A stretch of DNA of 64,000 nt, taken from positions 186,001 through 250,000 of the forward strand of contig OU612068.1 in the NCBI GenBank assembly GCA_914767715.1. Direction: 5' to 3'. Each line of letters opens with the position of its first letter. The stretch's first letter is position 1. This document shows, piece after piece, positions 10,918 through 44,287 of the stretch. The notes beneath the pieces were generated by a model. It did no database searches and was not told the origin of the DNA. It saw only the letters and a program-made list of their open reading frames with translations. The position numbers and the translations under genes are program-made. The DNA is from Membranipora membranacea. Lineage: Eukaryota; Bryozoa; Gymnolaemata; Cheilostomatida; Membraniporidae.

Positions 10918-13900
10918 CTATATCATGTAGCGGTAGACCACACACAGAGTAGACACTGGTGCCTTCACCTCATTGTAACCTGCAGCAGCAGCAGCACTGT
11001 CTCTCATTTATTCTTTATTGGTGCAGTTATCTGCTCCCAAAAACTCTGTAGCTTTTTGTACTTATTTTCTGTAATAAAACAGTACGCTATCATGAATACA
11101 GTTTATTTATAGCTCAACGTAGGTTAACATCAGCTTACTTTACCCTGCATGGCCTCACACATTCACACTCTCATAGTAAGCCGCAGCAGTCATGTACCCA
11201 TTGATATATGAATGTATATCAGTGTGTGTACCCTTTATTTGGTATTTCCAATACCAAATACTCTACAAATGTAGAGTATTTTTTAATTTGGTATTTGAAA
11301 TTGTTGGAAACACAGTACGCTGTCAACCCGCTCTTAGATAAGAGACTTTCATGCTGAATTAGGTGAGGGTTCTAACTAATGTTATCTCAACACCCAACTT
11401 CAAAACTAAAATAATTATAAAGTCTGAATGCAAGGGAACGGCACAACTCTGGAATACCTTTCTTGATGCTTTTATACACTGTTGAAAGATATATATAAAA
11501 AATTTATCAACTGAATATGGAACTTGAAAGCAGTGAACACATTTGTATATGTATAACATTTGGTATCTGCTTCTTTGGAAAGGATTGAGTAAATTGGTGA
11601 GCACTTATACCCTTCGTCATGTGAGGTGAGGTTTGATTTACGAGGGCAACCCATAAAGCTTTATTATTAAGTCTATGGTGCAACCCAATGTCTGTTATGA
11701 TGTTTTCATCCTTTCAAGGGAAGAGTGATGGAATTAGCGATTCTGCAGTTTACTGTTAACAGTTACATGAATGTCAGCACTTACCCACTAGACCTTTATG
11801 TACATCTGGTAGACTTTCGCTCTTCTGTCTAGATAATCGACTCTCCGGCTCCGCTGACTTAGCTCTGATAAACTCCTTACGATGATGGAACACTATGTTG
11901 TTGTACTCGAGAGCTGGTATTATATCCGATGATTTTAGTACTTTGCCGCCACTGAGTGATTTTTTACTTTTTTTCGGCAGTGTCTTGGATTTTTGTTGTG
12001 GAATGGTTTCTATTTTCTCGCATGGTTTTTCAAAAACTTCTTCATTGTCTGAGAGAGACTCCAAATTCCACCAATCCCAGCAGTGTTTGTTCCTCTACAA
12101 TATAAGACAGATTACTTCTCAGATATGATGGCTTCTCCTCTGCTAACTCTCCATGTTCTACATTAGGAAAGCTAAACCACTATTCTACATACTCCATATC
12201 AGTGCAGCAGACTACTGAGCATTGCGCTTATTGTGGGAGAAAAGCATTGTGCCAAAAGAGAAGATACTAGGTACATGAATATGATACTAGTTGGTATAAT
12301 TGGGTTGTTTTACCATCATGAATAAATCGTTGTTAGGATCCATCTCCTGCTCCTCTTGTGACTTCCACTCTGTTATTGCTGCTATATTTGGTTTTCTTGA
12401 TACATTTCTTCTACGCCTTCTCATCACCTCTGTAATATAAGTAACCAAAAACCCTCAAAGATTATAACTACAGGTTACAGGCTTCAAATGTCCCTGACTA
12501 AACGGACATCTCATACTCTAAACCTAATACTAATCCTTGTAAATGCCTGAAAGAAGTTCATTTCCTGCGATCGTGTCGGTGATGAAATGCAAAGTGGCAG
12601 CGTTAGCCACACATATCCAAATTTAAATTTTAGATCTTTGGACTCTGTTTTTTCATTGTAAAGTTAATCACATATAACTTGCTGGGGGAGGAGGGGGGCA
12701 ACAAATACAGAGCCTCTTTTATCCTCTCAAGTCAAGTCTTGATGTTCAAAGAGAGCCGAGGTATTATTGAGAGCCACATTCTTGCTGATCTCATTAACCT
12801 ACATGGTAATGATGTGTTAAACCTGCTAAGACTAGGATTAATCTAAACTAGAGAGTGACTGTTTGTATAAAAGCTTTAGCTCTGTAGGCTGCTGGCCGTT
12901 AATTAGTGATCACTTCTCATAGATAAGCACATTAAATACAAGTTATCAGTCAGCATACTGATGATTCTATAACCTATAGATTGTATGAACAATGTGATTA
13001 GGGTCTAATTATTTTGCCTATCATCCTTACAACAAGCCTAGACTTCTGTTCTGAATTTCCCCAAAATCGAATACAAGTATCTTGTTTGATAGAGAAGAGG
13101 TGTTTCTGTTGCCAGCAAACTCCAAGTCATAAGTGCTCCTGCTGTAAGTTAGTATAAATGATTTCTGTGAGGATGCTTGTTTGTTTGGTGGAATGTAAGA
13201 GGCAGCCCGAGCTCCCCTACTAAGAGTGTATGTGTTCTCACATCCTTACATAGGACAATTAGAGTATATTATTAAATGAAGTATGGTTACCTTTGACGGT
13301 TATGAATCCCATAGTAGAGCAGGATCCCTCACAGTTAGAAGCTATACACCTATACACTCCCTCCTGGGCTCTCGTTATATGTGTGATTATCAGAGAGTAC
13401 TTATTCTGAGTATCATCCTCCTCAAATATAAATCTCTCGTTACATCTCATAATCTCATCATCATCGAGAGTCCAGCGGATATCTGGAGCTGGGAATCCTG
13501 CTATGATCACAGAGAGTGTCACTGTACATCCCTTATCTACCTCGAAAGAGCTCAATCTCACCAAACACTCCGGAGCTGTAATCATACAAATATAACATCA
13601 GTGGATTAAAGTCATCTAAACGCAGAAGCAAATATTACAGGATAATTTCACCTGATCTCATACTTGGATTCCGTGTCAAAATGCCATGGCCAAAATGCCA
13701 TTGGGACAAAATGCCATTGCCATAATGCCATTGTCATAATGCCATGGCCATAATGCCATAGGTGAAAACACCACTGCACAATTTACCAATGCCAAAATAC
13801 CAGTTGTACAAAACGCCAGTTGTGTCAAAATACCAGTGGATATAAAGCCAGATGTGTCAAAATACCAGTGGATATAAAGCCAGATTGGACATAATACCAT

Positions 13901-16900
13901 GCGGGACAACATACCATATCCCAAAATACCATTGCCAAAATGCCAAAATATATAACCAAAGGAGATCAAGCCACATTGTATTTTTTTAGTCACATTACAG
14001 CTGCGGGTTGCTTGATCATAGTAGGGGGTGGTTCAGTTGGTTAGAGCCATCTCCTTCACTGTTCAAGTCTCAAAGTTTCTTCGTTCAATTTCAATGATAT
14101 CTGGGGTTTGTTGGGATCCACAAACTGAGAGCTAGTAACTTGTAATAAATATTTCCCAACCATTCCTTAGAATAATATGGCAATAACTTTGGATTATTAC
14201 CAATTTTTTTTTGAAAGCCAAGTCTTGACTCATCGCTGCCCTAGAGACTCATGCTTACTAATGACATTGATAAGACTACGATGATTGAACATAGAGCAGG
14301 TTATCTCTGTGTTTATTAGTTGTATAAAAAGTTACAGTTACAACTAACAGGAAGGAAAAACTCTGTTCACCCAAAATGAACTTTCACAGTAGGCCATGGC
14401 CATAGTATTCAGCAAAGCCATTTAATAGGGGCTTGTGACTCACAGGATGTTCACAACTTGAATTTCATGTTGTAAATTTAGTATAAATGATGATGGATAT
14501 GGATAAGTTTCTAACATCTCTTCTGACCATATACACATTCAACAAAATTTGTTTTCCTACTCGAGGGTATGAAAGCTACATAGTCTACAGAGCCGTTTCG
14601 TCAAAATGTGGTGTTACTATGCAGAGCTTTTGTTTCTCTTAAATAGTTATATAATGTAACTTCTTTTGATTCCATTTAAAAAGAATGTTGAGAATTTTAT
14701 ATGTTCAACCCAAAAATTTACTGATTTAATTACGATAAACCACCAAAGTTATCTTCCACCTGTAATGGACTGCGTAAAATGCACAGGACACACAATTACG
14801 TCCCATTTACTATTGAAAATCTATCAATAATCATTCAGATAGCACAAGCATTTAAGCTGTAATACACAGCAAAGAACTTGTTATACAGAACCTTTGCCAC
14901 AAAATTAAGAACTATTGGCGAATTAAAAAATTATTTTGTTACCCACCGGACTGAAAACATATTGACAAACTTATAACAAACTATAACAAAACTTGTGTAA
15001 ATTAAATTAAGTAACATAACAAAATGTGTGACTATTGTAGTGTAGAACAAAATTCTCCTATACCGATATGTATGCCAAAATATAACCCACCAGTGTTGTG
15101 ATGCGCAGGTCGGCGTACAGGAATCCTGAAAAAAATTTTGACTAAAGACTAAAGCAAGTTGAGTTGAAGCCAATATTTTTATATTCTTATTAGATCCCGA
15201 ACCAGAATTTGTGAAACCAAAATAATTATTTTATATTATCTATTACTATTATTAAATCCGAACATAAAAATGTGCACCTTAGATTTAAACATTTCAGATC
15301 AACAATTCCTTACGGATGAACACAACTAAAATAAATTTATGTGTTATTATAAGAAATTATACAATAACAAAATTGTTACAGAAATATCTGACACCAACTT
15401 TCAATGGAAAACCAAGCTCATGCATTGATAATGCCAGCAACAAAATTAGTGCCAGAAAGCATCAACGTCCTACTATCAAGAAACCTTGGATGACTAAGCA
15501 GTTATTTACACTCACCAAAGAGGGTACTAAACTTCACAAAATAAGCAAAAAGCATTCAAAAACCATAGAGGAAATTTAAAAATCATTGTAACAAATTTGG
15601 CATTAGATGGGCGCAGTACAACTAACACAATCAATATTATAATGGAAAAACTTTACGGCCATTTTATTGATGGAAGAATCACCCAGGGTTTAATTTTATA
15701 TCTTTCAAAAGCTTTTGATACAATAAATCACAGCGTTCTAATAAGTAAACAGATATTTTTTTCAGATATTATCCCCCCTCATAGCGACTGTAGGAAAATT
15801 ATCTTTTAAATAGAAAACAGTTTGTATTGGTAAATGAATTAAGTCGGTTTACTGCCTGTCATGATCGGTGCACCCTAGGGTTCGTTCTCGGCCAGCACTA
15901 TTTATAATTTATAATGTTGACCTTTTAAATGTATAACCTGATCTAAATTGAAATTTTTTTGCTGACAATACTAATAATTTTAGCACTGAACCTGAAATTA
16001 CGAAGAGCAATTTTACCTCAGATAAATGAATGGTGTATCACCAACTGTCTTGTCATAAACTATGAGAATACCTTTTTGAGACCTCGAACAACATTTTTGA
16101 CCAGAAGATTTACAGCTCATATTCCTGAACTTTTTTAGAAGAAAGAGGAACAGCATAACTATCTATGAACATTTTAGAAGCCTGAAAAAGGAATTAGATT
16201 TAACCCTGATGATGATACAAGCACTCGGTCCAGCCATTGAGCAGAATCTAGAATTAGAGTTCTGGGGCCACGCAAGTGTCAGCCAGATAGGACTCTGTGT
16301 GACATCAAGGGAATTAAACCAGGGGTCACAGTTCTCATATTTTTGAAAAGCTAAAAATCATGCCATTACAAATGCTTTGTGAATATAAAGTTTTGAAACT
16401 TTTATTTATTTCATACTCAATTCAAAATATTTTCAATATGATAACAAACCATGAATACAGCGCTTGATCCAACAAACTTGAATTTATGAAAACCAATAAC
16501 AAGCGAGGAGAGAGGTCCATGTTAAGAAATTGCATAGGCTTGTTCAAAAAGTTCATACCGGAGGTGTGGGTAGGGCCAGAGTGCAATCATGCTAGCCTTC
16601 ATGACGCCGGTAATAGCATCAGAAAAGACCAGTCAAAACCCTTCAAGCCAAGACATAAAGTTGGTCAAATTTAGAGAGTCAATTAACTTGGCATAACCCA
16701 CAGAGTTGGCGACTTGACGGCGCAATATTTGGCTGCAATTTCTGCAACACACACTAGCCTTCAGTACAATGGGGCCCAACTACCCCAAGCGAAAAAAATT
16801 CAAATGTAGAAACTTCGAGACCTGAACAGTGAAGGAGATGGCTCTAACCAACTGAACCACCCCCTACTCTGATCGAGCAATCCGCAGCTGTAATGTGACT

Positions 16901-19583
16901 AAAAAAAAGAACAACGTGGCTTGATCTCCTTTGGTTATATATTTTGGCATTTTGGCAATGGTATTTTGGGATATGGTATGTTGTCCCGCATGGTATTATG
17001 TCCAATCTGGCTTTATATCCATTGGTATTTTGACACATCTGGCTTTATATTCACTGGTATTTTGACACAACTGGCGTTTTGTACAACTGGTATTTTGGCA
17101 TTGGTATATTGTGCAGTGGTGTTTTCACCTATGGCATTATGGCCATGGCATTATGACAATGGCATTATGGCAATGGCATTTTGTCCCAATGGCATTTTGG
17201 CCATGGCATTATGGCCGGGTACCCATACTTGTCATATATACTTATTATTGCACATAACAATTCAGGCTCGAGTAGTAGTTCCGACGGCCTCCAAAGGACT
17301 TGTTGTTATCTGCATGTTAGACTGCATCCCCTGACCTGACCTGAGACCAGGCTAAGTGACCAGTTACAGGTTACCACCCTCAACGGCCCTCACCGGCCCT
17401 CAACAGCCAAAACAATAAGTACACAGAAAATTGACGGAATTTAATTACTTTTATTTCACTTATAGATCCCGATCATATCAATAATTCGATTTCAGAGTAT
17501 GTTGATTAATTTAAAGGCGCCAAATTTGTTAAATTTTAATTCCGTTAATTTATTAGAATGTTTCGAGTCAGGCTGCTAATTTTAATCCTAATTTTAATCC
17601 TATGTATATTTCTATCCTGTATGTATAGTATGCTGAAGATATAGAGCCTCTCTCTATCTATTCTGTATGTCTTATCAGAGAGAATGAATTAACATCTTCC
17701 TAATCCTATGCTGCTGTTTTTCTGATGTGTTACTTACAAAAATATTCAGGAATAAATTTAGAAGTATCATCTTATATTGATGCGGAGGGTAGAGGAACAA
17801 TAAATACCATCAAACATTAGCACGTGTATAAGTGATCGATGAGAAGATGGCCTGATGTATATCTTACCAGCATGCTGTTTATGGTAAAGTATAGTATAAT
17901 AGTTTGTTTACATATTTTAAACAAAGCCTGCTTTGACAAGGTTTTGCTAGAGACAGCTTGTAAAGACAGTCTTATGTTATGCCTTTACACTTGTCACAAA
18001 AAAAGCAATCGACTTCCATACACGTGTTCGGAGGTAACAAACTTGTTTTTAATCAAATCCACTCCGATAGTTAACAGTTTTCCGCTAATTACGGCCACTA
18101 GTGCTGTGAAATGACATAGATCCTTGACGTAGACATTGGGATAGCGCAATGAACAGCAACGACACCAAACTATACGCTGAGGCAAATCTTCAGGGGAAAC
18201 TCCTAATCTGGTGGCTATATAATACATTATATATAATATTATCTGAATCATAAGGGGCATGTGTGCCTAACACATTACTACATTGTATGTACACGGTACA
18301 CTTACTATGGTCTTATAAAACCTCTACAAACATATTGTGTTTGTAATCTTTTCGAAAGTATTGCAGAAGATGTATTCTACTATTAGTTTAGTCAAGGAGT
18401 TTAGTTACTTCTAGCTCTCCTTGGTTTAGTTAGTAATAAGCGACCCTTATATATTACTGCGCTATTAATCAGGCTAGGTCAGAGTTCTCAGGCTTTATTA
18501 ACTCATTGGATTTACAATGCTGCGCCTAATGGATGCATTTTTCAAAACCAAAACAATATGACCTGACTGCAATCTCATACTTTTAAAAGTCCAAAATAAG
18601 ATTCTGATGAAGATTCCAACTAAACCTGCTTACTGATTACGCATTAATGTGCGTAGCAACTGATAGAGCAGATTGCCAAAGCTATCAGGGAATGGTCGTC
18701 CGATCCCTCCAAGGTTTCCCCTATGAAGAACAATGCAGTTGGGATAGTCCAATAGTCGTTATTATTCTATATGCAGCTGAAGATTGATTATAGGAGGCCT
18801 CATCACAATATAACTGGTGAAGAATTGTCCGTTCCATTGTCATGTTGTCTTATCGCCACTTGTACTCCTCTAATAGGCTCTTTCCAGCATATTTCTTATT
18901 CCCCGGGGGCCGTCGGAGGGGGGCGTTGGAAGGGGAAGAGTCTGGGGAGCTCAGACTAATTCATATATATGCTTTTGGCACAGTCATTCAGTCATGGCAA
19001 CAGGGTAAAACCATTGATATGAATATATATCAGTGGGTATAACATGCCAGTCTAACAAGGTAGTTTTATGTTGTCCCATTCACTTTTGTGTGTCTGTACA
19101 CAATGTCAAAACAAGAGGTGAGACTGCATCATAATCTCCTCAGATAATGATGTTGGACTAATTTTCTAAATAAAAAATCAAATCTAAAAAATAATGCCGA
19201 ATTTATGGTTCTAATAGCAAAACAGTTACAGAAAAAGGAAGATAATTCTATGGAGAGTGTCTCTCAAGTTTTCCTTTTTGATGCACCAAGAAGGGTATCA
19301 AGTGAACATTGATCTGATATGAATGCTTTGTCCTCCCTGATCAGACCCCCCGATCAGACCTCCCTGCTCTGACCTCCCTGGTCTGCCCGATCCCTGATGT
19401 GACCTCCCTGATGTGACCTTCCTGATCAGACCTCCCCGATCTGACCACCGATCCCTTATCTGACCTTCCTGATCTGACCGATCCCTGATGTGACGTACCT
19501 GTGAAGTTATCTGAAGACGAGCTGCTGTTTCTCTTACTATTAATCACCAGTGGCATGACGCTCTCCTCTTCTGTGAGCACCAT
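10918..19583 (-). CDS. Single I-set Ig-domain protein, unknown family
   Basis: Proposed exons on the - strand, 5' to 3': 19583-19499, 13575-13291, 12429-12314, 12094-11785, 10979-10918. Splice phases agree at every junction and the sum is 858 bases: 285 codons plus TAG. The second exon is a clear intracellular-type I-set Ig domain: GFPAPDIRW in strand C, then YRCIASN in strand F. The usual B-strand Cys is Val (VTLSV), so the canonical disulfide cannot form; this is common in titin-like muscle Ig domains. No signal peptide or transmembrane segment. The N-terminus is Ser-rich (NSSSSSDNF). After the domain come an Arg cluster (MRRRRRN), an acidic stretch and a Lys/Ser-rich tail. The middle exons are well supported; the first exon (ATG at 19583) and last exon rest on phase, splice motifs and a nearby polyA signal. 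Further 5' exons are possible. The ~5.9-kb first intron carries the foldback element. No family assigned. Confidence 0.6.
11243..11300. repeat. Hairpin-forming inverted repeat
   Basis: 'aatactctac' and 'gtagagtatt' pair around a 4-base loop, with outer 'taccaaat'/'atttggta'-like arms. It lies between the last two exons of the Ig gene. No known function. Confidence 0.5.
13667..17223. mobile_element. Foldback-like transposon with long inverted repeats
   Basis: The left arm (13667 to about 14080) is the reverse complement of the right arm (about 16808 to 17223). Each arm is about 410 bp of short degenerate sub-repeats built on 'aatgccattg' and 'ataccagt'. The ends read GATTCCG... on the left and GGTACCC... 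on the right as inverted, and both sides are bordered by an exact 8-bp direct repeat CATACTTG (13659-13666 and 17224-17231), a good target-site duplication. The inner end of each arm carries a tRNA box-A-like segment (GGTTCAGTTGGTTAGAGCC at 14031-14049 and its complement near 16840). The 2.7-kb centre holds decayed non-LTR reverse-transcriptase fragments and no transposase. Long arms of sub-repeats are typical of Foldback elements. It sits in the first intron of the Ig gene. Short open frames across the arms are repeat artefacts. Confidence 0.8.
15316..16070 (+). pseudogene. Decayed non-LTR retrotransposon ORF2 fragments
   Basis: Broken frames with reverse-transcriptase signatures: KKPWMT linker-like sequence (about 15478), RSTTNTINII then LYLSKAFDTINHSVLI (15612-15750; motif A normally reads D-x-SKAFDT), and FADNTNNF (about 15955; FADDT-like motif C with the second Asp changed to Asn). 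Several stops and frameshifts. Lies in the centre of the foldback element. Confidence 0.75.
18040..18214 (-). other. Possible orphan coding exon
   Basis: After a tatatag acceptor (18215-18216) an open - strand frame reads TRLGVSPEDLPQRIVW, then a Cys-containing CRCC and KDLCHFTALVAVISGKL. Composition looks protein-like and less AT-rich than its surroundings. No strong phase-matching donor leads to the Ig exon, so it is not included in that gene. It may be a missed exon, a decayed gene or chance. Confidence 0.25.
19328..19498. repeat. Degenerate tandem repeat of GATCTGACCTCCCT type
   Basis: About ten imperfect copies of a 10- to 15-base unit built on 'ctgatctgacctcc'. It starts directly downstream (on the - strand) of the splice donor of the proposed first exon of the Ig gene (donor 19497-19498), so it occupies the start of that intron. 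Confidence 0.7.
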
Positions 19584-24307: not shown

Positions 24308-29224
<4,917 letters not shown>

Positions 29225-33425: not shown

Positions 33426-36400
33426 ATGGCTGATAATGATGAAGAAGCTTTGAAAAAAAAGTTTGAGCAGCTTCAACTACAGCAGCAGCAAAAACTTCAG
33501 AAGAGAAAAGAGAAGAAACAGAAGCAACAGGATGATGCTAGAACAGAAGCACTGGAAGCTGAGAAGACAACAGCCTCAGCTTTTGGAGTTGATGATGAAC
33601 TTGATCTTAAGGTAGGCCAGAGATAGATAACTCAGGCAGGCAAGGGTCAACTGGTTCATTATTAATATTTTACCCTCAGCTAAGTAGAGTTGTCTCAGCT
33701 GATGATTCTTAGCTCCTAGCGCCGACTTCAGCGTCGTGACTTCCTATTTGGTCAAGCTATTCAATGCAGATAGAAATCATCTGAAAATTATCAATACTTC
33801 AGCCTTGGCATTCTACCCAAACTAAAACTCATATACTTCAAGCAATGAATTGCTTCAAGGCATCATTTAGTAAATGAAATAAATACCTAGTCAGATATGG
33901 TGGGCGTCTGGCTCCACTAGGGCCCATTGGTTGACAGAAACAAATTATATGCCTATCTCCAACTTCATACTGGTTAGGTGAGTCAATACTGGAATACTGG
34001 AATGATGCCACTTAGATGTGGGTCATATCAATCTGCACAACTTACAAGTAAAGAGACGGGAGAAATCAGAGTACCCACTATCTCTGACCTGAATCTTCAT
34101 ATTAAGTTATTGTATAAGGAGTCTCATGAGCTTATTTATAATTGTAGACAGAGGATCCTCTCCCTAAATCAGCCTCATACCTCTCAACAGAATTAGTCGA
34201 GCATCTCAACGAACAGATCAGAGTAAGAGTGAAGGATTAACTGGCTGATAATCCGATAATATCATACAGCATGATAATTTGTATGACTTGGTTCAACATT
34301 ATACCCAGAAGATATGTGTTATGAGTCTTGATCAAAAGCATTGATAAAGCCATGCAAGGTGTTAGAGTTGGCTCTAACTCCTTGAGCAGCCATGTATGTA
34401 TGTATGTATAACATTAACGGGCATACATTACATCGTGGGTTATAAACTTAGTAGTCAGCCACATCAAACTCATGATTTAACGATACACTTGTCAGTGTGT
34501 TTTAGCTGTTTGTGTTGCTGGCTTGGACTGTGACAGATAACTTGTGTTTTGTTTGCAGGAATTGAAAGATGAGAATGGGCGACTGTTTAAGTTACTTAGT
34601 GAAAGAGATTACGAGATTAGGCAACTCAAAAAGAAACGAGAAGAGGATAAAATGGCATTAGCAGGTCAGTGCTCCTTTTGTATTGTCATCTCATATCTGA
34701 TAAACATACATTATAGTTCAATTATAACTGCAAAATGTTATAAGATTAGTTATTGTCTGATAATATAGAAAAACCTAATGTAATAACATCCAGTCGGCCT
34801 TATGACGTTGCATGTTGTCAAGAGTCTGGCACGGAATCAGTAGATTTTGTAGTGGAGGTACTGTATATAGTATTAAGTGTCAACAAGGGGTCAACAAGAG
34901 GTCAACAAGTTGCCTTTAAAGTGCCTCGACCGTATATAAGGGCCAGTCAATGTAAAGCGATCACCCAGCCATATCAAATTCAAATGGGGTTAGCAGCGTT
35001 CAAATTCCTCCTGCTTTTTCGGAATTAAGAGGAGAAGCAGTGAATTATTTTTAATGGGAATCAGACAAGCTGATGCGGAATTGTGTGATACACATGCCCA
35101 ATAAATTTTCATTCCAATAATGGCATTGGAAAGTGGTGAAAATATGACTGATGTCATACGAAATTGCCCAGTTCCGATGATTTCAAATCATCCGCTTCAA
35201 AATATACGAGCTCTTATTGGTCAATTTTGACGTTATGATTTATGGTTTTAGAGGTTGCCTAGATACTGTTGTCAAGATTGAAATTGACCGTTGTAATTAA
35301 ACCCTATAATCCCAAGTGTGATGAGCCAACACAACAATAGCTATATCATAGCTTCTATTCAACTTTATTTATGGGTGTCTGCGAATCACAATTTCTTATA
35401 TAACACACTTGACCACTTGAGAATGCAACCTGGACTGGCTGTTAGAGGCGGAGACCAAGGCCATTCTCCGCCTCTAATTACATTGATCAGCCAATGGTCT
35501 TGCCTGTCACTTCACATGATTAATCCCCTTGCACCCCCTTCGATTCCTACCTCTTTAACTGTTATTTTTATACTTTATACTCTATAAATAAATAAATAAA
35601 TAAGTGTAATACACTAATACAGTAATATGTGTAATTCAGTAATATATGTAATACACAAGTACACTAATACGTGTATCTCTGTTATATTATCACAGGCTCC
35701 TCATCACTATCCTCGGATACGGCAGCCGTTAAAATCGTCGAGCTCTCTAAGAAAGTTAGAGAACTTAATGCTTCATTGGAAACTAAAAAAACTGAAGCCA
35801 AGCAGCTATTTGGTCGATGTCGGCATCTAGAAAATGAGGTTAGCATGTTAAGCTTCTAAGTTAAGTTTTCGCAATTATAGACCGTCTTCAATGGCCTTGG
35901 TCTTGGATGAATATATATAAATGTTTGACAACTATGACATTCAAACTTAAATCGGGGCAAATGTTACTCAGGGCTCATCTGACTTGAGGGTCATGTCACT
36001 CAGGGCTCGTATATCTCAAGGCTAATATCACCGGTAGAATACATAGTGTCCAAGCATGGCACTAACAGTTATTTCAGCATCAAAATACCAGAGATGTTCT
36101 TCCCGTAGCTACTATAAATTCTATGACATATTTTCTAAAATTACAGCTCGGCCGTGAAGCTTTGGTAATTTGTAGCCTCTATCATAATTATATTTTAAAC
36201 AGCATGATATATTCATCTGTGTACATCAATTATTCTTAATATGATATATTTAGTGTCTCACACAATGTTATTTTAATTCACAGCAGTGAAGAAATCTTAG
36301 AGCACAGCGATATTATCAGTTCTTACTATATTTGTATCAGGGAGTAATGTAGCTCTCAGCTCTGTATGACAGCTGAGAGGAGCTTGTAGATCTCATCATC

Positions 36401-39400
36401 AACTTTGCTTATTTTGAGATGCATGAATTACTATGGTGTATAACTCTATGCACCATTTATGTGCAAAAATTAATAATATCGGTAATGTATTGTTATATGT
36501 ACATCTTATTATGTCTGTGTTACAGTTAGCCAGTAAGGATAATAAGACAACTCCCAGACTGAATACAGTGACTCACCCTGACGATGTGTCACCACGAAGT
36601 CGAAGTCTCAACGAAGCAGAGCAAAAACAGCTCAACGATAAACTTAGAATATCTGAACAGAGAAACTCTGAATATCGTAACCAAGTACAGGGTCTAAAAA
36701 CAGAAATCAAGATGGCTCAAAAGGTTAGTGCTGATCCAGTGTTATCAGGCTACAGGTTGAATTCTGAGATTGTCTCCAGCACTTTTATTACGATGGTTGA
36801 TGACATAATATGATATATATATATATATATATAAAATACACCTTTACTCCCAGGTTATAACTAATGAAATAGGTGAAGGAGTAAACTTTCATGATCTGCT
36901 CAACGCAAACAGCAACTGGAGAGGACGAGCTCAGCAAATACTCGGCCTGCAAAAAAAGGTATGTCTGGCTGACCTTGACATACATATGTATTCGCCATCA
37001 CGAGACTGTGGTTAGTCCTGTAGAAACCTCTTAGCAGCAAAGTAAACTTGGGAGGTGTTATGGGATCAGTTCCACCTCCCCTCCCCTTCCTGCATTACTT
37101 ACAATGTAAACAATACAGTCTGTAAGCATATATGTAACTGTATTGTAGTAATTTTTCATATTACTTGAGAGTTATCCTTTCTTGTAAATCAATTTCGTAA
37201 ATTTTTAATCAACCTCACACCACTATTTCCTGATCAGGTCGGTGAGCTGAAGCAGCAGGTAGATCAGCAGGACCCACTACAGAGCTCTCGTGACAGTGGA
37301 GGTAGGAATGCTGATGGTGACTTGGAGGCAGAGTTTATGGGCGCTAAGCAATCTAAAGGTGCTGATATGAAACACAGAGAAGCTCTGAGAAGACTGGAGA
37401 AAGAGAAAAGGGAGGGTCAGGAGGTGAGAAGCTCCGTACAAAGCTAAACCTTCCTGTTTCTATTCTTTGTCATATAGTTTTCAAATTTGGCAATGTTTTA
37501 GGAGCACCGGCTCATCTCTTTTAGGAAAATTTTTGTTGTCATATTACCTGAAAGCATGAGGACCTGAAGTTCATAGTGTGTAATTATGATGCCGTATGAG
37601 ATTGCTGTTTGTATAGTGTGTAGAGGATCTCCCTGACATATCATGTCTGGTATTTTTCAGAGAGCCACAGCGGAATTGAAAGCCTTAGAAGGAGATTTTA
37701 GCAGCCTTAAACAAAAACTTGACGCCAGTAAAGCCCGGAATAAAGTTTTATCCAATGAGAATAAGTCATTCAAGGCAGAGATGCAGAAACTGGTAGACAA
37801 AGGAAGCCATGATGATGAGCTCATATCTGCTCTCATAGTGAGTGAGATGTGACGTTATGTGAGATAGTGCTGTTATGTCTTCTGAGATGTGACGTTATGT
37901 CATGTGCCAACTGTCTTGGCTTTCTCTGAGTGTGATCTGGTACATGGCAGACTTGACAATGATCTGACATATTCAGATAATGATTTATGTAAATGATTAT
38001 GACTTTGAACGACACACCGTATGTGGTAGGCTCCCTCCCTACACCTAGGACTATGTCGGGTTTACTATAGACCCCCCTCCCTACACCTAGGACTATGTCG
38101 GGTTTACTATAGACCCCTCTCCCTACACCTAGGACTATGTCGGGTTTACTATAGACCCCCTCCCTACACCTAGGACTATTTTACAGGCTCAGCAGGCTAA
38201 TATGAAGACAATGATAGAGCAGCTCACTCATATACAGAAAGAGAATCAGTCCTCACAGCAGAGTAAGATGGAGGCAATAACAGCTAAAACTCAGCAAGAG
38301 AATAACATGATAAGTCAGCTTAAACATATAGTATCAGAGAAAGAGGGAAAAGTTAAACAGCTAGAACAGGAACTGGTACAGCTAAAACAAGCGGTGAGTC
38401 TCTGTGTCAAACAAGCGGTGAGTCTCTGTGTAAAACAAGCGGTGAGTCTCTGTGTCAAACAAACGGTGAGTCTCTGTGTCAAACAAGCGGTGAGTCTCTG
38501 TGTCAATCAAGCGGTGAGTCTCTGTGTCAAACAAACGGTGAGTCTCTGTGTCAAACAAGCGGTGAGTCTCTGTGTCAAACAAGCGGTGAGTCTCTGTGTC
38601 AAACAAACGGTGAGTCTCTGTGTCAAACAAACGGTGAGTCTCTGTGTCAAACAAACGGTGAGTCTCTGTGTCAAACAAACGGTGAGTCTCTGTGTCAAAC
38701 AAACGGTGAGTCTCTGTGTCAAACAAGCGGTGAGTCTCTGTGTCAAACAAGCGGTGAGTCTCTGTGTAAAACAAACGGTCAGTCTCTGTGTCAAACAAAC
38801 GGTGAGTCTCTGTGTCAAACAAGATGCGAGTCTCTGTGTCAAACAAACGGTGAGTCTCTGTGTCAAACAAGATGTGAGTCTCTGTGTCAAACAAGCGGTG
38901 AGTCTCTGTGTCAAACAAACGGTGAGTCTCTGTGTCAAACAAGCGGTGAGTCTCTGTGTCAATCAAGCGGTGAGTCTCTGTGTCAAACAAACGGTGAGTC
39001 TCTGTGTCAAACAAGCGGTGAGTCTCTGTGTCAAACAAGCGGTGAGTCTCTGTGTCAAACAAACGGTGAGTCTCTGTGTCAAACAAACGGTGAGTCTCTG
39101 TGTCAAACAAACGGTGAGTCTCTGTGTCAAACAAACGGTGAGTCTCTGTGTCAAACAAACGGTGAGTCTCTGTGTCAAACAAGCGGTGAGTCTCTGTGTC
39201 AAACAAGCGGTGAGTCTCTGTGTAAAACAAACGGTCAGTCTCTGTGTCAAACAAACGGTGAGTCTCTGTGTCAAACAAGATGCGAGTCTCTGTGTCAAAC
39301 AAACGGTGAGTCTCTGTGTCAAACAAGCGGTGAGTCTCTGTGTCAAACAAACGGTGAGTCTCTGTGTCAAACAAACGGTGAGTCTCTGTGTCAAACAAGC

Positions 39401-42400
39401 GGTGAGTCTCTGTGTCAAACAAGCGGTGAGTCTCTGTGTCAAACAAACGGTGAGTCTCTGTGTCAAACAAGCGGTGAGTCTCTGTGTCAAACAAACGGTG
39501 AGTCTCTGTGTCAAACAAACGGTGAGTCTCTGTGTAAAACAAACGGTGAGTCTCTGTGTCAAACAAACGGTGAGTCTCTGTGTCAAACAAGCGGTGAGTC
39601 TCTGTGTCAAACAAACGGTGAGTCTCTGTGTAAAACAAGCGGTGAGTCTCTGTGTCAAACAAGCGGTGAGTCTCTGTGTCAAACAAACGGTGAGTCTCTG
39701 TGTCAAACAAACGGTGAGTCTCTGTGTCAAACAAGCGGTGAGTCTCTGTGTAAAACAAACGGTGAGTCTCTGTGTCAAACAAACGGTGAGTCTCTGTGTC
39801 AAACAAACGGTGAGTCTCTGTGTCAAACAAGCGGTGAGTCTCTGTGTCAAACAAACGGTGAGTCTCTGTGTCAAACAAACGGTGAGTCTCTGTGTCAAAC
39901 AAACGGTGAGTCTCTGTGTCAAACAAGATGTGAGTCTCTGTGTCAAACAAACGGTGAGTCTCTGTGTCAAACAAACGGTGAGTCTCTGTGTCAAACAAAC
40001 GGTGAGTCTCTGTGTCAAACAAGCGGTGAGTCTCTGTGTCAAACAAACGGTGAGTCTCTGTGTCAAACAAGCGGTGAGTCTCTGTGTCAAACAAACGGTG
40101 AGTCTCTGTGTCAAACAAGCGGTGAGTCTCTGTGTCAAACAAACGGTGAGTCTCTGTGTCAAACAAGCGGTGAGTCTCTGTGTCAAACAAGCGGTGAGTC
40201 TCTGTGTAAAACAAGATGTGAGTCTCTGTGTCAAACAAACGGTGAGTCTCTGTGTCAAACAAACGGTGAGTCTCTGTGTCAAACAAACGGTGAGTCTCTG
40301 TGTCAAACAAGCGGTGAGTCTCTGTGTCAAACAAACGGTGAGTCTCTGTGTCAAACAAGCGGTGAGTCTCTGTGTCAAACAAACGGTGAGTCTCTGTGTC
40401 AAACAAGCGGTGAGTCTCTGTGTCAAACAAACGGTGAGTCTCTGTGTCAAACAAGCGGTGAGTCTCTGTGTCAAACAAGCGGTGAGTCTCTGTGTCAAAC
40501 AAACGGTGAGTCTCTGTGTCAAACAAGATGCGAGTCTCTGTGTAACACAGATCATACTCTCCAGAGAACAGGTGATTGACACCTATAGTTCTCAGAGATC
40601 CCTGGACAATTTTAGAATATTACTGAATTTTACTGATAGAAAACATCATTGATGTTAGAAGGATGAGAATGTTCCAGTAGTATAGTTGTCGGTGATGTTG
40701 AGATTATGGGATTTCTCTGAGTTTGATATATGAGGGATTTGCGAGAGCTACTGGTTGTGGTATATGGGTAGGAAGAAGCCAGGGCAAATCCCACAAGCTA
40801 GAGCGGGAATTTGAATCTGGGACCTCTCGCTTTATAGCTAATGTGATCAGTTTCGCTATTGAAGCTTCTCACCATATTATGCTCTCAATTAAACTCTCAA
40901 TTAAAATAAATATAATTTCAAAATTTGAATTGAATTCAAGATTATATTATCAATTTGCAGAAGATTCAGGAGTCACAGATGAACAGCGTGACCTCTTTAT
41001 TTGAGCGACCGCCGACTCAGCAGTCTGCCAGGAGCGCCCGATCAGACCGACCAGATCGACCAGACAGCAGAGCTAACAACCAGCACTCCTCTGAACAACT
41101 CAACTCTAACAGTCAAACTCAGCCCGACGGTCAGACTCAGGCCGCCCCCTCCTTCCCCTCATATGATGATGACGGTGATAGTGATGAAGAAGGGGAGATA
41201 ACCACTAATAAAAGTAGAGTTACCTCCTCCGGTCCTCGTGTCTCATCTAGACAAGGGTCAGCCAGAGGTCAGTATCCTAATAACAAAGTCATAGAGTTAC
41301 ATGATTATCTAGTCAAATATTCAAGGCTATAAAGGTCAATCAAGCTTAGTTATTTGGTTATAGGAACTGTGGGTTGTATGCACTGTGAGTTATAGGCGTG
41401 CCTTGTCACATATGAACCTCAAACAGATCAAGGAATGTGTAGATTAAGGACATTTAATGAGCATCACAGTTACTAGCTTACTGTCATGAGAAGCCAACAC
41501 CAGTGTTGTCCTCACCATTCTGTGGAGATGTATATAGTATAAAGCCTGATATCCAGCATTGAAATCCATATCTGGAATAGCATAATTATCTTTCTTTTGC
41601 CAAACGAAGGGCTTGCAAGAATAGCCAGTCCTTAGTAGCATTTCTAGGAATGCATAAAATCAGTAACGATCAAGGCGTTTTTTTACTTTTCGCAGTTTTG
41701 TAAACAAGACAATTCCCAGGTTACATTCTGCATGCTAGTAAGGACAGCATAGACATCGATAAATAGATGCCTAATCAGTTTTTGCGGTTTCGTTATTACT
41801 GGTTCACCAAAATCAGTGGTAGGGATTTATAGCTTCTTATGTTATGTTTTTCAGCTGGTCCATTAAGTTCATTCTAAATCATTCTTGAACAAATCCCTAC
41901 CACTGATTTTTTATATACAGGAGATTCACGAAAAGTGGAGCGACTCCCAAGAGCGGCTTAGGTTTCTACTGGCTCTATTTCTATGAAGGACAGCCAATCA
42001 AATCATTATCAGATCAGCTCGTTGAGTGTTTTAATTGGATAGGGTTATGCTAATACTTCCATTCTATGAGAAGACTGTTATATTCTGTGCTGATATCCTT
42101 TCTATTTGTGATGATAAAACTCAAGTTGTCTCCTCTCTGAGCACTTACCTCAGAGAGAAGACAACTTTAGTTTAGCTATGTTATTATTTACAGTGAAATC
42201 AGGCAAACAGATAAATGGCGGATCACAGAGGCCGACATCTAATAGCGGTAGAAAATCAGGAGCCGGAGAAACCAGGGCGAGATCTGGTAAAGGTTCCTCC
42301 AGACCTGGTACTGCAGTCAGGTGAGAAATCTGAGCTCACCGTCAAGATTTATCAGTTTAACTTCCCCTCCGGTAGCTGTCTGTCATGGCTTATAACTTGG

Positions 42401-44287
42401 CTGCAGCTGTTTTTTATCTGCAGACATCACATAACATAACAAAAAAGTCTACGATTATCAAATAGTCTTCACTATAAATAAAGTTTCTATGTTAAAACAA
42501 TAACACCAGCAAAGATATCGATAATGATATGATATATCAGACTTTTCTACAGTCTCGATCAATCATAGCAGTTTGTTATTGCCGTTATATTCTATGCAGC
42601 TGGATAGTAAGCTCAGCTTTAGACTTATTTAGCTATATCTCTAGTATGATATGCTATCACATCTCTCACATTATATTATATGTTTTATGTTTTTAGTAAC
42701 AATAAAGTGGAGATGAGTAGCAGGGAGAGAGAGACATACGAAGCTCATCTTCTGGAGCATAAGAGTTTAGCTCAGGCCTCTCAGGTAGAGAGAGATAAAC
42801 TAATGGAGCTTCTACAAGTCACACAGAGAAGGTATCCACATATCCTCCTAATACTCTGTCTGTATACTATAATCCCTTATCAGAGAAATATAACTCTTAG
42901 ACAAGCCAAAACCTCAGGGATTATTAACATTGTTGTGTAAATTAATTCATTGTTATTCTTATTACTGATTTAACGCCAAATTTTGCCTGATCTCTGTTTG
43001 TATTGTATGATTTAACGAACAGCGTAATCTAGTTTACAATGAAAAGACAATCCTGAATATCAGTTTAACTTAAGTCCAGTTTACACTTATTAGATTCTAG
43101 GATCTCACACTATAGGCCATCCGACTCTTTCTGATATGTGTTTAGATGTCATTTAGGAAGTTGGTGGATGGCACCCATCTATGAAAGACATGACTGTTAA
43201 TCACTGCTTGTAACTTAAATATGAAACAGCAAGTATCAGAACTACTGTAATGTAATGGTGATGGTGATCTGTGATATAAAGCGATATTTGATGATAATTA
43301 ACAGGTTAGATGAAGCAAACGATCAGACTTTAATGTATCAGAATGAGATGAAATCTCACAAACAGAACGCAGTTCAGCTCGAGAAAATAATCGGGAAGAT
43401 GAGACTGGAGGGATCTCAGAATAAATCAACATCAGGTCAGTTAGTCAGTCAATCAGCTGCTCTCCCATCTGGCTGTTATACTTAGAATCTCATATCGGAC
43501 ACATTCCTGCTATATTTTTAAACTCTGACATCATAGAAGACTTTTACTGCTGTGATAAAGTCCAGCTATATATTAATATTACAATGTCCTTGTAGATATT
43601 TCATCACACGTTGATAAGAAATGTAATAATTATTCAAGATAAGTCAGGTCAGTTTTCTGCTGAGGTACAAAGTTCAGAATCCGTATATATGAGGTGTATT
43701 ATCACGTCTACAAGTCCTTCAAGTACAAACCTAATCATACCCGGCTACTATCAATGACTAAACATTCTGTACCCTGATCTATTGAACTATAGAACGGTCG
43801 TGTGACAAACTCTCATCTCATTGATATTTTTGGTCCGCATTTTTTTACATAGAAATTTTCACAAGGTAAATAACTTTACAAAGCCTTCTTACTTTAAGTC
43901 CTCTGTCAAACTTTATTTGTGATTATCTCATGGGCATGTCTTCTTGTAATTTTAACTTTTATTGGCCCTCATTTGAAATTAGGACAAAATTAATATTTAG
44001 TTGTTGTAGGAGTGTCGAGGAGACGAGAGAAGACTAATACTAGCGGTAATTTCTCACTGGGTAGTATGACAGATTTACGAGGGGGAGGCCAGGCTGAGAG
44101 AGTCGATGAGTTAGAAACCTCGCTATCTATACAAAGAGATGAAAATGAGGCTCTAAAAGCAGCCTTAGAGAGTACGCTAAGGGCGAAAGAAGAGGACCTA
44201 AAATTATATAATGACATGATAGAACAAACTAAACTTGTATTTTTACAAGGACTACGTCAGATAAAATCTCAGAAGCAGTCCAGCTGA
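33426..44287 (+). CDS. CCDC13: Coiled-coil domain-containing protein 13 (CCDC13)
   Basis: A centriolar-satellite/ciliary coiled-coil protein needed for cilium formation in vertebrate cells. Exons: 33426-33611, 34148-34222, 34559-34664, 35696-35838, 36526-36723, 36854-36958, 37238-37423, 37661-37837, 38187-38393, 40961-41267, 42194-42320, 42697-42831, 43305-43435, 44010-44287. Total 2361 bases, 786 aa (human about 715). Conserved blocks: DENGRLFKLLSERDYEIRQL in exon 3, WRGRAQQIL in exon 6, SRNKVLS-like ARNKVLS and KGSHDDELI in exon 8, and the C-terminal ENEALKAAL then FLQGLRQIK. Glu/Lys/Gln-rich heptads run almost throughout. The region encoded by exons 10-11 is a low-complexity Ser/Arg/Asp linker and accounts for the extra length. 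The donor of exon 9 was taken as the first copy in the 24-bp array; because units are 24 bases, any other copy would keep frame and add 8 residues per unit. Confidence 0.93.
35442..35477. repeat. 13-bp perfect hairpin in CCDC13 intron 3
   Basis: TTAGAGGCGGAGA and TCTCCGCCTCTAA separated by 10 bases. Confidence 0.8.
38039..38180 (+). repeat. 42-bp tandem repeat abutting the acceptor of CCDC13 exon 9
   Basis: Units begin 'ctacacctag' at 38039, 38081, 38123 and 38164 (spacings 42, 42, 41). The last, partial unit runs into 'ttttacag' and exon 9 at 38187. Each unit contains 'ggtttactatagacccc', a pyrimidine-containing, branch-point-compatible segment. Confidence 0.9.
38388..40547 (+). repeat. 24-bp satellite, 90 units, each spanning a splice donor
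   Basis: Ninety head-to-tail 24-base units, consensus 'caa(g/a)cggtgagtctctgtgt' then 'caaa', run from 38388 to 40547 with no phase slip. The first unit overlaps the end of CCDC13 exon 9 and its donor (GCG|GTGAGT at 38391-38399). About 85 units keep an exact GTGAGT; two read GTCAGT and three have 'gatgcgagt'. The commonest variable site is G/A in 'caagcgg' versus 'caaacgg'. Because 24 is divisible by 3 and the unit has no stop in the relevant frames, it is open through its length in the exon 9 frame (Q-A/T-VSLCVK repeated) and in two - strand frames. The 816-, 714- and 539-codon open frames here are products of the repeat. Confidence 0.98.
41809..41910. repeat. 20-bp inverted repeat, CCDC13 intron 10
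   Basis: AAAATCAGTGGTAGGGATTT (41809-41828) is exactly complementary to 41891-41910, with a 62-base loop. May be a tiny MITE. Confidence 0.8.
42124..42167. repeat. Hairpin just upstream of CCDC13 exon 11
   Basis: AAGTTGTCTCCTCTCTGAG pairs with CTCAGAGAGAAGACAACTT with one mismatch or bulge. It ends 26 bases before exon 11 (42194), so it could affect acceptor access. Shares GTTGTCTCC with the hairpin at 24821. Confidence 0.7.

Follow-up and report, generated by a model that had tools for sequence, protein, structure and literature searches.

Exon-intron boundaries amplified in tandem have been described in amphioxus and in human genes. In amphioxus, such "mirages" are tandemly repeated exon/intron boundaries in Adh3 and in the globin genes BflGb6 and BflGb9 (PMC3087553). 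AG/GT signals are present in many of their units, data on Adh3 and globin reverse transcription-PCR suggest regular splicing, and the clusters differ in length, at Adh3 even in the soma (PMC3087553). The human CBS gene carries a polymorphic 31-bp variable-number tandem repeat (VNTR), c.1444_1467+7(16_21), with single-base differences between units (PMC2630376), which sits at the exon 13/intron 13 boundary (PMC1395315, PMC5188458). In the repeats of human F7 intron 7, the most upstream 5′ splice site alone is used normally (PMC6627357). Here we describe a minisatellite of 90 units at the end of exon 9 of CCDC13 in the bryozoan Membranipora membranacea, found in a 64,000-nt stretch of contig OU612068.1 (GenBank assembly GCA_914767715.1, positions 186,001 to 250,000; "the window"). 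An earlier note on this DNA, made from the letters alone, knew of no named system like it, which was wrong, as the amphioxus mirages and the human CBS and F7 repeats are direct precedents. Because shorter arrays of this sort are known from amphioxus and human genes, the bryozoan array is an extreme case, by copy number, of a known kind, the boundary minisatellite. A literature search with narrow terms met no bryozoan case, from which we draw no claim of a first description.

The host gene model was built by joining exons at GT/AG boundaries, with two exons recovered from the Watersipora ortholog (Table 1). Among the matches listed for the incomplete model (the best 120 of 455), the CCDC13-like protein of Watersipora subatra is the best relative (E value, 1e-211; 54% identity over 93% of the model), and the 467 N-terminal residues of a fuller model show 72% identity with it over 87% of their length among the matches listed for that query (the best 120 of 463). 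The similarity runs along the whole coiled-coil protein, and 16 homologs, including that of Watersipora, were picked from the best 120 of 455 and aligned at the exon 9/10 junction; by this sequence similarity, the host gene is CCDC13 of a bryozoan. A Pfam search of the protein gave two matches, Rab11-FIP3-like and HALZ, both under the cut-off. Apart from exon 9 and intron 9, the 13 exons of the model are 75 to 307 nt long and the 12 introns 130 to 1031 nt. The placement of the repeats at CCDC13 exon 9, with exon 10 as the next exon, had already been proposed in the earlier note and holds for the coding exons of the 14-exon model.

Table 1. Coordinates of CCDC13 and of the boundary array in the window (a slash marks a splice boundary)
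Feature	Position	Strand	Details
CCDC13 gene	33426..44287 (stop codon at end)	+	14 coding exons; with first donor, 786 codons plus stop; one open frame
CCDC13 coding exon 9, 207 nt	38187..38393	+	Ends at first, inferred ancestral donor GCG/GTGAGT; gene model and ortholog junction
Minisatellite, 90 x 24 bp	38385..40544	+	Consensus AAACAARCGGTGAGTCTCTGTGTC, the last 9 nt of CCDC13 exon 9 plus the first 15 nt of intron 9
Intron 9 if first donor used, 2567 nt	38394..40960	+	Gene model
18-unit run, first copy	38433..38864	+	Unit order recurs at a lag of 19 units
18-unit run, second copy	38889..39320	+	Repeat of 38433-38864
In-frame tail past array, 27 nt	40545..40571	+	Right phase; ends at alternative donor CAG/GTGATT, intron side from 40572
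CCDC13 coding exon 10	40961..41267	+	Acceptor TTTGCAG/AAG; gene model and alignment

Splicing from the first donor (38393/38394) would yield ELVQLKQA/KIQESQMNSV at the junction, compared with ELLQLKQA/KIQESQMNSV in the Watersipora protein (a database prediction), with LKQA/KIQESQMNS identical in both. Because the first-donor product matches the Watersipora protein at the junction, unit 1 holds the ancestral boundary. The largest insertion at this junction among the 16 aligned homologs is 3 residues, in Lingula, with several vertebrate rows aligning poorly just past it. With its boundary position set by the ortholog junction, each unit spans the exon-intron boundary, as in a mirage, and the array is an amplified boundary of 9 exonic and 15 intronic nt, in keeping with the earlier view of the unit as the end of exon 9 with its donor. 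No host-like CCDC13 model with an array was apparent among the best 120 of 455 and of 463 matches, some of whose sequences were read; the longest listed CCDC13 matches are 855 and 799 amino acids (aa), and the candidate lengths with an array are about 400 to 1270 and 650 to 2080 aa for the two queries.

By direct count, the 90 units of 24 nt follow one another head to tail without indels, and Tandem Repeats Finder reports 38385 to 40543 with a period of 24, 90.0 copies, 95% matches, and 0% indels. The units fall into nine variants, the two commonest of which (45 and 28 copies) make up 73 of the 90. GTGAGT is present in 85 units, and the other five carry GTCAGT (two) or GCGAGT (three). Both counts agree with the earlier note, which had placed the same array at 38388 to 40547, with its phase shifted by 3. 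A pattern search of the window allowing up to 3 mismatches found 89 matches, all within the array, compared with none in 100 dinucleotide-preserving shuffles. In place of the earlier term "satellite", the array is better called a minisatellite, as no copy of the unit lies elsewhere in the window at this threshold. Every unit contributes eight codons (VSLCVKQA-like) without a stop, so the phase is kept at every donor, the array reads openly through the CCDC13 frame, as had been noticed, and the frame stays open to 40571. A second tandem array, of 42-bp units (38033 to 38179; 3.5 copies, 97% matches), stops 7 nt before exon 9, so that exon 9 has a repeat array near each of its ends. Every full 42-bp unit carries TTTACTATAG, an acceptor-like string, and a 25-base stretch of the unit has no other occurrence in the window at up to 5 substitutions.

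The bryozoan array shares with the amphioxus mirages a unit that spans the boundary, but it differs from them in size, side, and phylum. The BflGb6 mirage has 6 and 3 units in two haplotypes, with units of 150 to 160 bp on the acceptor side in a cephalochordate, whereas in the bryozoan array the donor side is repeated, in 90 units of 24 bp that are all in frame. The CBS VNTR is alike in that its unit, by its name, consists of 24 exonic and 7 intronic nt, each copy having an exon end and a donor; it differs in a length that is not a multiple of three, in its polymorphic 16 to 21 copies, and in a repeat number that is linked to lower activity. The F7 intron 7 repeats likewise contain repeated donors, but their 37-bp unit is not a multiple of three.

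Donor strength was predicted with RNAduplex as the energy of pairing with a sequence that we take to be the U1 5′ end. The first donor and 82 of the 90 units, itself among them, share the same predicted energy of -9.4 kcal/mol, whereas three GATGTGAGT units (-5.5 kcal/mol), two GTCAGT units (-5.2 kcal/mol), and three GCGAGT units (-1.8 kcal/mol) are weaker. The dozens of equally good in-frame donors that had been claimed are therefore borne out as a prediction. The donors of the other 12 CCDC13 introns range from -5.3 to -11.1 kcal/mol, and, leaving aside the array beyond the first donor, 4 of the 476 GT sites counted in the gene, the first donor included, reach the first donor's strength. Folding of 251 nt of RNA from the exon end and the array shows nothing special (z = -1.56; 13 of 200 shuffles were equally or more stable).

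Seven of the 24 unit positions are variable, two of the 6 within GTGAGT and five of the 18 elsewhere. As two adjacent positions always covary, there are six kinds of change, four of which alter an amino acid (K/N, T/A, A/D, and V/A), while two are silent. Nothing in this variation suggests selection on the donor or on the peptide; the test is weak because homogenized units leave few independent changes. The order of the units bears on how the array grew. The two 18-unit runs are an exact 432-bp duplication (longest repeats in 500 shuffles of the unit order: mean, 6.9 units; maximum, 11), which is the footprint of a multiunit duplication, and the array grew at least partly in this way. Homogenized units (95% matches in Tandem Repeats Finder) together with such duplication give the array the turnover of a mirage. 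The 3′ end of the array is sharp: in the 150 bp of 3′ flank, no degenerate units were found above chance, with a local alignment score of 11 compared with a shuffle mean of 12.1, a score equaled or exceeded by 728 of 1000 shuffles and by 312 of the 409 other window stretches compared. With one unit rather than 90, intron 9 would be 431 nt long, within the 130 to 1031 nt of its neighbors.

From the boundary sequences and the ortholog junction, we consider it probable, with moderate confidence, that the array is a near-neutral mirage, spliced out as part of intron 9 once the first donor has been used. The spliceosome would mostly pick this most upstream donor, the earliest to be transcribed, which ends exon 9 at 207 nt; the later donors, equal in predicted strength, would leave with intron 9, the protein would be an ordinary CCDC13, and the array would be nearly neutral. 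A later donor, if used now and then, would preserve the frame, as every unit brings in exactly eight codons and no stop, and these frame-keeping units may be a reason why the array reached such a length. The agreement of the first-donor product with the Watersipora protein and the small insertions in the 16 homologs speak for this reading, and so do the listed matches, among which no model with an array was apparent, the amphioxus mirages, the F7 precedent, the absence of a selection signal, and the multiunit duplication. Several points weigh against it. Donor strength does not favor the first donor, because the large majority of units predict equal U1 pairing, and if introns are recognized by intron definition in this animal, splicing from a late donor would bring intron 9 to an ordinary length. 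Just past the array, at 40572, there is also a fairly strong donor in frame. The few independent changes make the selection test a weak basis for near-neutrality. Human CBS provides a counterexample, a duplicated intron 7/exon 8 junction at which splicing is reported to take place at the distal copy (PMC2630376), and more 31-bp repeats are reported to go with lower CBS activity (PMC5188458), so that neither use of the first copy nor neutrality is general.

The equal donors might also be used in large numbers, as the earlier note had suggested, and CCDC13 isoforms would then differ in length by whole octapeptides; we regard this as unlikely but as the alternative to be taken most seriously. The units at the first donor's predicted strength and the uniform 24-nt, in-frame, stop-free repeats fit such a distributed choice. 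A further, weak point comes from AlphaFold: a model of 163 residues (the last 23 of exon 9 and 140 from the array), computed without an alignment, is almost wholly helical (mean predicted local distance difference test [pLDDT], 76; predicted template modeling score [pTM], 0.42; range over the five models, 35 to 76), and by this model the insert, if translated, might continue a helix rather than interrupt the rod. The amphioxus and F7 precedents speak against distributed choice, as do the absence of protein constraint in the array and of a comparable insertion in the 16 aligned homologs. In its full form, which is somewhat more doubtful, exon 9 may stop at a different one of the 82 equal in-frame donors in each CCDC13 transcript, and a single allele would give a protein ladder with 8-residue steps and the unit number as its upper limit. 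It is highly improbable that the whole array is exonic, with exon 9 reaching the distal donor at 40572 and a protein containing about 90 octapeptides. The 795 open codons from 38187 to 40571 would allow it, and the main sequence evidence, mild as it is, is the strong in-frame donor CAG/GTGATT. Its predicted energy of -8.2 kcal/mol is stronger than those of 7 of the 12 other donors in the gene, and with 63 of 3412 GT sites as strong outside the array on the + strand (1.02 per kb), about 0.04 such in-frame donors are expected by chance over the 108 nt of open frame that follow the array. However, 85 upstream GTGAGT donors would have to be skipped, and the exon would measure 2385 nt, far beyond the range of the other 13. 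A search of the array exon against the protein database gave no match, which says little, as the search was insensitive: Watersipora CCDC13, which shares the first 69 residues of the exon, was also unrecovered, an insensitivity that is probably due to repeat words displacing all others.

An assembly artefact, with an array collapsed or expanded in its unit number, is very unlikely. Nine unit variants stand in an uneven order without indels, and the 2.2-kb array is shorter than typical long reads; on the other side are the exact 432-bp internal duplication and the BflGb6 mirage, which appears aberrantly assembled in the amphioxus genome draft (PMC3087553). Least probable of all is a nuclear role of the array as a cluster of U1 sites, whether by titrating U1 or by protecting the intron against premature polyadenylation. 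In its favor, GTGAGT occurs 95 times on the + strand of the window, 85 times within the 2.2 kb of the array and 10 times elsewhere, and 22 times on the - strand. The donor hexamer, however, varies no less than the other positions of the unit. A mammalian cell contains about a million copies of U1, and the nascent transcripts of one gene would take a negligible share of it. Titration, which the earlier note had raised, is implausible on these numbers and was rejected.

Other repeats lie farther away in the window. Inverted arms of 323 nt, 96% complementary and 2915 nt apart, occur at 13665 to 17225 with CAAAATGCCAT-like tandem repeats and a further 105-nt arm pair inside, which looks like a foldback or terminal-inverted-repeat element. 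A 167-nt dispersed repeat has three copies (24903 to 25069, 25569 to 25735, and 27009 to 27175), the latter two with 76% and 87% identity to the first; they look intronic, within a - strand chaperonin gene that we take to be CCT-like. At positions 1 to 392, a 59-bp tandem repeat (6.6 copies, 99% match) is cut by the window start.

With the CCDC13 array, exon-boundary minisatellites, described in amphioxus and human genes, reach a bryozoan and a number of 90 copies. For 5′ splice-site choice, the array amounts to a natural experiment, in which dozens of evenly spaced, in-frame donors share one predicted strength and context. What sets these donors apart is essentially only how far they lie from the exon and from the acceptor, and the array bears on whether a 5′ splice site is chosen by position alone or whether the choice is spread.
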